Below, one piece after another: positions 12,571 through 15,202 of a stretch of DNA of 64,000 bases. The stretch's first letter is position 1; each line of letters begins with the position of its first letter. The notes below the pieces were generated by a model. That model was not told where the DNA came from, did no database searches, and saw only the letters and a list, made by a program, of their open reading frames with translations. Made by a program: the position numbers and the translations under genes. Origin of the DNA: Christiangramia sabulilitoris (lineage in GTDB: Bacteria; Bacteroidota; Bacteroidia; Flavobacteriales; Flavobacteriaceae); assembly GCF_007050985.1 (NCBI RefSeq), contig NZ_VHSF01000001.1:992001-1056000 (forward strand). The letters are read 5' to 3'.

Positions 12571-13164
12571 ATGGCAGAGATCAAACGTTGCGGCTGGTGC
12601 GAAGGGGATGCCTTATACGAAGCATATCACGATAAGGAATGGGGCGTTCCGGTACTGGACGACGAAACACTTTTTGAATTTCTTACGCTTGAAACTTTTC
12701 AGGCCGGGCTTAGCTGGATCACCGTGCTTAGAAAAAGAAACAATTTCAGACAGGCCTTTGATAATTTCGACTACAGAAAGATCGCACAATACAAAGAAGC
12801 CAGGATCACCGAATTAATGCAGAATTCCGGCATCATCAGGAACCAGATGAAAATCAGAGCGACGGTTACGAATGCCCAAGAATTCATGAAGATCCAGGAC
12901 GAATTTGGAAGTTTTAGTAAATATATCTGGCAATTTGTGGATGGCAAGCCTATTCAAAATGAAATCGAGGATTATAGAAAAGCACCTGCAACTACAGAGA
13001 TTAGCGATAAGCTAAGCAAAGACCTTAAGAAAAGAGGTTTTAAATTCGTGGGCTCTACTGTCATTTATGCCCATATGCAGGCAACGGGAATGGTAAACGA
13101 CCATGAGCTAAGTTGTTTCAGATATGCTGAAATAAAAAAAATAGGAGAGCAGGTTTCTATTTAA
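12571..13164 (+). CDS. tag: DNA-3-methyladenine glycosylase I
   Basis: Base-excision repair enzyme removing 3-methyladenine from alkylated DNA. The 197 residues begin with the family signature KRCGWCEGDALYEAYHDKEW, whose Cys residues with the C-terminal H-x-x-x-C (NDHELSCF) fit the Tag zinc site. The LETFQAGLSWITVLRKR segment is highly conserved. It starts 5 bp after the TonB-like gene, so it is probably the last gene of that transcript. Its 3' end overlaps the opposite-strand aat gene by 8 bp, with no terminator visible between them. Confidence 0.95.
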   Translation: MAEIKRCGWCEGDALYEAYHDKEWGVPVLDDETLFEFLTLETFQAGLSWITVLRKRNNFRQAFDNFDYRKIAQYKEARITELMQNSGIIRNQMKIRATVTNAQEFMKIQDEFGSFSKYIWQFVDGKPIQNEIEDYRKAPATTEISDKLSKDLKKRGFKFVGSTVIYAHMQATGMVNDHELSCFRYAEIKKIGEQVSI

Positions 13165-13795
13165 GATATTCCAGAAATTCAGATCTCGGGATCTCTTCTG
13201 CTCCCAGACTCTTTAGGTGACTGGTATAGCTCTGGCAATCGATCAATTTTATACCTTCATCTTTTAGCTTTTGTACCAGCTTTATTAAACCAAATTTAGA
13301 AGCATTGCTGGCTTTCGCAAACATGCTTTCTCCGCAGAACACTTTCTTGTCCCTTAAATATATTCCATATAAGCCTCCAACCAATTTCGTTTTATCCCAG
13401 ACCTCTGTAGAAATAGCAATTCCTTCATGGTGAAGCTGAAGATAATTCTCTTTTATCTCCCGGGTGATCCAGGTTCCTTCCTGGCCTTTCCTATCTACAT
13501 TTCCGCAATTCTCTATCACCTTTTCAAATTCCTGGTTAAAGGTCACCTGGAATTTATCCTGATTTAAAAAAGGTCTCATGCTTTTAGCGATCTTTAAATT
13601 TTCAGGAAACAGGACCATCCTGGGATCTGGAGACCACCATAGTACAGGCTGACCTTCATTATACCAGGGAAAAATTCCTTTGTAATAGGCCTCTTTAAGT
13701 CTCTCTGGACTCAGGTCACGGCTAACTGCCAGCAATCCGTCAACATCTGCAAAGTCTACCGGTGGGAATTCCTGTTGTTTCTCAATAAAGTACAA
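13157..13795 (-). CDS. aat: Leucyl/phenylalanyl-tRNA-protein transferase
   Basis: Adds Leu or Phe from charged tRNA to N-terminal Arg or Lys residues, marking proteins for ClpS/ClpAP degradation (the N-degron pathway). The 212 residues show the family core: FPPVDFADVDGLLAVSRDLSPERLKEAYYKGIFPWY, then QPVLWWSPDPRMVLFP and GGLYGIYLRDKKVFCGESMF. The only start that gives the usual N-terminus is a TTG at 13793-13795, since no in-frame ATG lies close upstream. It converges on tag with an 8-bp overlap. The terminator upstream at 13825-13862 isolates it from the DUF3127 operon. Confidence 0.93.
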   Translation of the reverse strand: MYFIEKQQEFPPVDFADVDGLLAVSRDLSPERLKEAYYKGIFPWYNEGQPVLWWSPDPRMVLFPENLKIAKSMRPFLNQDKFQVTFNQEFEKVIENCGNVDRKGQEGTWITREIKENYLQLHHEGIAISTEVWDKTKLVGGLYGIYLRDKKVFCGESMFAKASNASKFGLIKLVQKLKDEGIKLIDCQSYTSHLKSLGAEEIPRSEFLEYLK

Positions 13796-13947: not shown

Positions 13948-14322
13948 CTAGAAAGGAAGATCGTCATAATCTTCTTCATTTAGATCGCTAGCGGGTTCAA
14001 ACTGGTCTGGTGGCGGTACATTAGAACCTCCTGAAGGCTGCTGTGCGGCCAGGTTCTCAATTCTCCATCCCTGTACAGAGTTAAAATACTTAGTCTCTCC
14101 CTGTGGGCTAACCCATTCGCGGCCTCTAAGGTTAATTCCAACCTTTACCGGCTGTCCTACCTGAAATGCATCTAAAAGACTGCATTTGTCCTGTACGAAT
14201 TCGATCATAATATGTTGAGGATACTGCTCCTCTGTAGTTACGACCATTTCTCTTTTTTGAAAACCATTGCTTCCAAAGGTCTTGGTATCACCAATTAATT
14301 TAATCTTTCCCTGTACTTCCAT
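13948..14322 (-). CDS. DUF3127 protein with SSB-like acidic C-terminus
   Basis: A 124-residue protein matching DUF3127 over about residues 1-90 (MEVQGKIKLIGDTKTFGSNG, FQKREMVVTTEEQYPQHI, EFVQDKC, GQPVKVGINLRGREW), a beta-rich stretch consistent with an OB-type fold. A disordered Pro/Gly/Asp-rich linker follows, and the chain ends EEDYDDLPF (116-124). That acidic tip closely resembles the C-terminal peptide with which single-stranded DNA-binding proteins recruit repair proteins. The tip and the beta-rich region are seen directly; DNA binding is an inference. It lies 7 bp after the flavin reductase gene with a clear AAGGAA ribosome-binding site and ends at its own terminator. The canonical ssb gene is not in this window. 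Confidence 0.8.
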   Translation of the reverse strand: MEVQGKIKLIGDTKTFGSNGFQKREMVVTTEEQYPQHIMIEFVQDKCSLLDAFQVGQPVKVGINLRGREWVSPQGETKYFNSVQGWRIENLAAQQPSGGSNVPPPDQFEPASDLNEEDYDDLPF

Positions 14323-14329
14323 TTTTTCC

Positions 14330-15202
14330 TTATTTTGCTAATAATATTTTCCACGCATTTTCCGGCTCATCTTTCTCGAGATATCGCTGCGCATGTTTAT
14401 GAATTTTTTCTTTATCGCCGCTTTTTACAAGTTCGGCCTCTTCTGAATTCGAATTAAGAAAGGCTTCTATCTCCCCGTTTTCAGGCAAAGACTCTACATT
14501 CCCCAATTTTCCAAGATCATTCCCCGTTAAAACCTTACTTGTTCTAACATCCTCAGGCATGGCATCCACGCCAATCCCAAGAGTTGACAAAGGTTTTGGA
14601 ACTTCGAACATTCCGGTTCTGGCCCTCGTATACCAGTTACCACCCATACGGGCTACCTGGTCTATTTTATACTGGTCTATATACCCATCTTCATCGAGTA
14701 TTTCCTCTTTGATATGCATTTTCACCACATGACAGATAACTAGATTCCCGGCGCCACCTTCAGTCCCGGTTTCAATGATATCTACAATCTTACATTCAAA
14801 TTGCACCGGAGCTTCGGCTACGCGAAAAGGCTTTACCAGATCAGCTTTCAGCATGGTGAGACCAGCCTTATCAAACTCGTTCACTCCTTCAGCATATTCA
14901 GTACTGGAAAGCGACATTTGTTGGACTATATCATAATTCACGATATTGATCACTACCTCATCTACCTTCCTGGCATTTTCAAAAGTATGCTTCGTGGTAT
15001 TATCCCTTCCTCTTCTCGCAGGAGAAAAGATCAAAACCGGCGGGTTAGCACCAAACACGTTGAAAAAACTAAAAGGAGAAAGGTTGGGTTTTCCATCTTC
15101 ATCTATCGTACTGGCAAAAGCAATAGGCCTTGGACCAATAGCCCCCAGTAAATACTGATGCAGTTTACCCACACTTACATCTTTAGGTTCCAGACTGAAC
15201 AT
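14330..15202 (-). CDS. Flavin reductase family protein
   Basis: A 290-residue protein of the flavin reductase-like (flavoredoxin) family, which bind FMN in a split-barrel fold. The core is at about residues 15-190: GAIGPRPIAFASTIDEDGKP, NLSPFSFFNVFGANPP and FSPARRGRDNTTKHTFEN. An extra C-terminal segment of about 80 residues, helical and acidic, follows. The physiological substrate cannot be read from sequence. It begins 15 bp after a TATCTTTG promoter box and is followed by the DUF3127 gene 7 bp later, so the two form an operon. Confidence 0.8.
   Translation of the reverse strand: MFSLEPKDVSVGKLHQYLLGAIGPRPIAFASTIDEDGKPNLSPFSFFNVFGANPPVLIFSPARRGRDNTTKHTFENARKVDEVVINIVNYDIVQQMSLSSTEYAEGVNEFDKAGLTMLKADLVKPFRVAEAPVQFECKIVDIIETGTEGGAGNLVICHVVKMHIKEEILDEDGYIDQYKIDQVARMGGNWYTRARTGMFEVPKPLSTLGIGVDAMPEDVRTSKVLTGNDLGKLGNVESLPENGEIEAFLNSNSEEAELVKSGDKEKIHKHAQRYLEKDEPENAWKILLAK

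Follow-up and report, generated by a model that had tools for sequence, protein, structure and literature searches.

A DUF3127 protein with a predicted SSB-type OB fold and an SSB-Ct tip as a probable second SSB of Bacteroidia

The DUF3127 gene and the SSB genes of its host

The minus strand of the window, i.e., of the whole 64,000-nucleotide stretch of Christiangramia sabulilitoris DNA that was analysed, carries at 13948..14322 a gene for an SSB-type protein of 124 aa with an SSB-Ct tail, recognized from its ORF and from matches to PF11325 and phrog_4932. With 107 bits against PF11325 (DUF3127; curated cut-off 27) the protein is a member of this family. The host genome encodes a single copy, and the closest named relatives are those of Christiangramia/Gramella (C. 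echinicola, 98%). Three parts follow each other on the minus strand: the OB-fold domain (residues 1-92, 14047..14322), a disordered linker (residues 93-115, 13978..14046) and the SSB-Ct tip EEDYDDLPF (residues 116-124, 13951..13977). The translated ORF ends in ...ASDLNEEDYDDLPF.

Directly upstream and co-directional lies a flavin reductase-like gene (14330..15202, minus strand), which falls outside the function proposed here, and downstream lies aat for the leucyl/phenylalanyl-tRNA-protein transferase (13157..13795, minus strand). When neighborhoods were compared, aat was found near the DUF3127 gene both in Flavobacteriaceae and in a sister family of the same order (f2, probably Weeksellaceae). 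The flavin reductase adjoins it in Flavobacteriaceae only, and viral DUF3127 loci share none of the host neighbor genes. Operon logic was therefore rejected as a clue to function, and the original prediction was right in stating that the flavin reductase does not explain the protein, the pairing being lineage-specific.

A profile search of the host genome detected two PF00436 SSB genes, both outside the window, which confirms that DUF3127 is present in addition to a canonical ssb located elsewhere. The canonical gene (C17:663928) has a MutY-like gene adjacent and its product ends in EEEDDLPF. The second one (C1:1063733-1064035, L002), about 7.7 kb past the end of the window, encodes a tailless protein of 110 aa ending in HELLLLGK. 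Short tailless SSBs of this kind form a clade that is widespread in the order.

Predicted OB fold and homology to SSB

An AF2 model built with 87 relatives shows a beta-barrel with pLDDT values of about 92-96 for residues 1-80 and 88 for residues 81-90, whereas linker and tail are disordered (pLDDT of the linker about 50). The best PDB matches of this model in Foldseek were all SSBs, including PaSSB (E 2.6e-5) and B. subtilis SsbA. VIA-align, whose match list is informative for the listed families only, gave a Z-score of 9.5 for the SSB of S. ruber (5odn) and of 9.3 and 9.1 for PriB. The expectation that this beta-rich protein adopts an OB fold was thus borne out: the structure prediction returned an SSB/PriB-type OB fold at high confidence.

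Sequence profiles point to the same relationship. A profile of 36 DUF3127 homologues searched against the PDB with hmmsearch matched 1se8 (E 1.1e-8), 2fxq (7.9e-4) and 3lgj (4.4e-3), and hhalign of DUF3127 against a Flavobacteriales SSB profile gave 97% with an E-value of 1e-10. The SSB Pfam model (PF00436) matches DUF3127 proteins weakly. Among the 87 aligned relatives it hit one, with E 0.0077, and in the Pfam search the window protein itself did not match PF00436. As this protein lies outside PF00436, the claim made here is one of homology and resemblance, not of membership. The alignment with SSB covers the second half of the OB fold; for the N-terminal half of DUF3127 the profile comparisons gave no sequence alignment with SSB. 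In nearly all DUF3127 homologues read, R68 and an aromatic residue (W, Y or F) at position 70 are conserved, and in the alignment this pair corresponds to the R-x-W (W88-like) motif of SSB. Just this motif is retained, as the region of E. coli SSB with the stacking Trp40/Trp54 has no clear counterpart in DUF3127. Bacterial SSBs of PF00436 (E. coli SSB, S. ruber SSB 5odn, D. radiodurans SSB 1se8) therefore share with DUF3127 the OB fold, the R-x-W in its second half, the disordered linker and an acidic D-D-L/I-P-F tip. They differ in that the DUF3127 sequence is beyond the reach of PF00436 and its N-terminal half cannot be aligned. In most host genomes, DUF3127 is additional to a true SSB.

The close match to PriB raises the alternative that DUF3127 is a PriB-like replication-restart factor, that is an SSB-derived OB protein acting at PriA primosomes and using its tip for docking, and not a general SSB. 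PriB is among the top fold matches, the OB domain of DUF3127 is short, and PriA is retained in 11/11 good genomes tested. However, PriB is not known to have an acidic tail and is encoded in the rpsF-priB-rpsR locus, whereas DUF3127 ends in an acidic PF tail and has aat and the flavin reductase as neighbors. In addition, phage copies of DUF3127 accompany recombinases and exonucleases besides primases, and the genomes without SSB described below would be left without a general SSB. We consider a PriB-like role improbable.

Conservation of the tip and distribution of the family

All 100 DUF3127 homologues that were read across the phylum end in PF. L occupies position -3 in 82 of them, and D is found at positions -4 and -5 in 88 and 84, respectively, the usual end being DDLPF. 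The linker diverges in length and sequence among aligned homologues, the last two residues being invariant in these 100. Since PF11325 spans residues 2-89 only, the homologues were not selected by their tail. All 80 named Flavobacteriaceae homologues end in DDLPF. Conservation is stricter in chromosomal copies (100/100) than in viral ones, of which 71/80 end in PF; two more (L111 and L163, on viral contigs) carry DDLPF lengthened by one residue, to DDLPFS and DDLPFN. When all six frames of the host genome (3.21 Mb) were scanned for D[DE]LPF followed by a stop codon, exactly two sites emerged, the canonical SSB and DUF3127, and the reversed control pattern gave zero matches in the same scan; the tip pattern in the scans was restricted to D[DE](L/F)PF. 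The 100/100 PF ends and the two-site scan led us to reject a chance origin of the tail. Within genomes, the tail residues of SSB and DUF3127 covary weakly at best (p 0.001 for the last 3 residues, not significant for the last 4-6).

Reading EEDYDDLPF as an SSB-type C-terminal peptide behind a disordered linker, as originally proposed, is hence upheld by the ORF, the tail conservation and the genome scan. The tail proved universal in cellular DUF3127 homologues except for one additional gene copy: on C22 of genome G425, a second, shorter DUF3127 protein without tail (L435, ending in GWKIESA) is encoded beside the tailed copy. A Flavobacteriaceae genome (G023) encodes two DUF3127 proteins (L096, L097) with long Pro/Gln-rich linkers and an SSB ending in STEPPF. 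Possible mimics of the tip were also seen, namely a 441-aa frame that is not a recognizable SSB and ends in ...DSDAPDDLPF (L469, G449), and two small non-SSB frames of G435 ending in ...EDFEEDDDLPF and ...EGFEEDDDLPF (L487, L490). For E. coli, the SSB-Ct is described as a tip of nine residues by which at least 17 partners are recruited (PMC10018359).

DUF3127 was detected by profile search in all 100 good Flavobacteriaceae genomes and in 72/73 Bacteroidia genomes of the phylum sample, mostly as a single-copy gene. In the one exception (G408) the main SSB has the end DDLSF, and there are two divergent accessory SSBs with the ends VDDLPF and VEDLPF.

The family also occurs in phages. The phage profile phrog_4932, annotated as "single strand DNA binding protein", matches residues 1-124 of the window protein with its positions 1-117 of 117 (E 9.6e-46), i.e., it is the same family over the full length including the tail, and phrog_44 of the same annotation matches residues 49-124. 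RefSeq phage records annotate DUF3127 homologues as SSB, and in isolated phages their genes are located in recombination/replication cassettes: between YqaJ exonuclease/Erf and primase in P12024L, near RecT and DnaA in phi18:3, near primase/helicase and NinG in filifjonk, and near RusA and DNA polymerase in Fpv5. In Pantoea phage AAS23, DUF3127 has been described as forming part of the SSB (PMC8004638). As an SSB annotation already exists for the phage family, the label itself is not new. However, phrog_4932 and phrog_44 are phage genes that are SSBs by annotation only, whereas the chromosomal DUF3127 is inherited vertically and occurs in nearly all Bacteroidia genomes of the sample.

An OB fold may also serve another purpose, such as RNA or protein binding, with the PF tail as a lineage relic or as a regulatory tail without SSB-Ct partners. 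OB folds indeed have many ligands, and aat and the flavin reductase are not DNA-repair genes. We regard this as very unlikely, as the last two residues are invariant in 100 diverse homologues despite linker divergence, the phage setting is one of DNA recombination, and the tail is retained where SSB tails vanish.

Decay of the SSB tail in a sister family and the proposed role of DUF3127

SSB was present in 53/53 genomes searched across the phylum, and some of the SSBs read were tailless, mainly in f2. We sampled 60 f2 genomes, of which 55 were of good quality; many of the genomes surveyed in this study as a whole are drafts. PF11325 was found in 55/55 of these, each time with the tail, and PF00436 in 50/55. 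Based on reading nearly all SSB matches, the main SSB ends in PF in 11/55 genomes (weak tips, e.g., EENTPF and KEMPF, being included). In 16/55 the main SSB is tailless or absent and a tail occurs only on a divergent accessory SSB, in 24/55 one or more SSBs are present but none was seen with a tail (in G423 a contig end truncates one accessory SSB), and four (G413, G425, G426, G443) have no detectable SSB. Thus, with 24 genomes in which no SSB was seen with a tail and four without detectable SSB, no SSB-type protein other than DUF3127 was seen to carry the hub peptide in about half of the good f2 genomes.

In the SSB tree, clade A (canonical, tailed in Flavobacteriaceae) is separated from clade B, whose tailless members have about 110 aa and include the second SSB of the host, and from divergent accessory SSBs. 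The f2 members of clade A have an intact tail in some genera and a decayed one in others (e.g., ...EDSEFN, ...SMDLDD, ...VQHDF, ...KEMPF, ...EENTPF), and are missing from most, where clade B remains. A frameshift or assembly artefact behind the tailless SSBs was rejected, because the other frames near the stop contained no tip-like peptide in all tailless cases checked. The DUF3127 proteins of f2 form one clade (58 sequences, support 0.965), which argues for vertical inheritance, so that the pattern is one of SSB decay and not of DUF3127 transfer. G178, a genome that belongs to a different class of the phylum, is a possible independent case: its only SSB (L310) is tailless and ends in ...DDYIGGSHTE, with no tip-like peptide seen by eye in the other frames near the stop, and its DUF3127 ends in LEDLPF.

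PF00436 can overlook divergent SSBs, as in G428, which was dropped from the SSB-less genomes after the tail scan revealed a divergent accessory SSB. In G413, G425, G426 and G443, no SSB was found with PF00436, NF004972 or an f2-specific SSB profile. The single weak match to an SSB profile, in G425, was identified from its sequence as ribosomal protein L21. A missed SSB was rejected for these four genomes, as the re-search returned L21 and DUF3127 itself and nothing else, and in the D[DE]LPF-stop scan DUF3127 was the only plausible ORF in each.

The coexistence of tailless SSB and tailed DUF3127 in 24 good f2 genomes, and also in the genome of the window, would fit a tail-donor subunit, i.e., DUF3127 forming mixed oligomers with tailless SSB and providing tails in trans without being an SSB alone. 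We consider this quite unlikely, given the four good f2 genomes that have DUF3127 without detectable SSB and the stand-alone DUF3127 gene of phages. All three alternatives are less able to explain the genomes with DUF3127 and no SSB.

We therefore favor the reading that DUF3127 is a tail-bearing second SSB, redundant or specialized in the window's organism and able to assume the SSB hub role; this is probable in our view. The support that was directly computed consists of the SSB homology, the predicted fold, the conserved tip, the distribution, the phage context and the retention amid loss of the SSB tip. The original idea of a second SSB-like protein besides the canonical ssb is supported by tail conservation, predicted OB fold and SSB profile homology, and in view of f2 it understated the case. 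As such a second SSB, DUF3127 would bind ssDNA with its OB fold, coating or capping it, and the flexible linker would present the acidic D-D-L-P-F tip to enzymes of replication, restart and repair, into whose conserved SSB-Ct pockets it would fit. Candidate docking partners are PriA, RecO, RecQ and similar proteins, as for the canonical SSB tip. In the window's organism DUF3127 would work beside a canonical SSB with the identical DDLPF end, and partners may be shared or divided. As a tailed canonical SSB is also present in most Flavobacteriaceae genomes that were read, the role of DUF3127 there may be minor. In f2, where the tail of the canonical SSB or the whole SSB is lost, most or all of the hub function would fall to DUF3127; since its OB fold and tail are kept in every good f2 genome while SSB decays, it probably carries the hub role there.

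A bolder version, which we put forward only tentatively, is that the class Bacteroidia has its indispensable hub SSB in DUF3127 and not in the PF00436 protein. The essential SSB-Ct function would then have moved to DUF3127 in a large family (probably Weeksellaceae), some members of which would replicate their chromosome with DUF3127 as sole SSB.

An additional SSB with its own C-terminal peptide is known from B. subtilis and S. pneumoniae, where SsbB plays this role (PMC3128108). SsbB belongs to PF00436 and serves competence, whereas DUF3127 constitutes a family of its own, which in one lineage has persisted longer than the main SSB. In the literature searched, DUF3127 was mentioned in a single paper and PF11325 in none, and we found nothing relevant on lineages without tailed or canonical SSB. 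As far as this search shows, the near-universal chromosomal second SSB and a family that loses the SSB tip while DUF3127 keeps it are new.

SSB is considered universal among bacteria, and its C-terminal tip is seen as the essential part that recruits partners. If true, the proposed role would mean that the SSB hub has passed naturally from the main SSB to a tip-bearing second SSB. It offers a function for a domain of unknown function conserved in nearly all Bacteroidia that we sampled. Whether the tip has to be located on the main ssDNA coat protein would become directly testable in culturable laboratory species.
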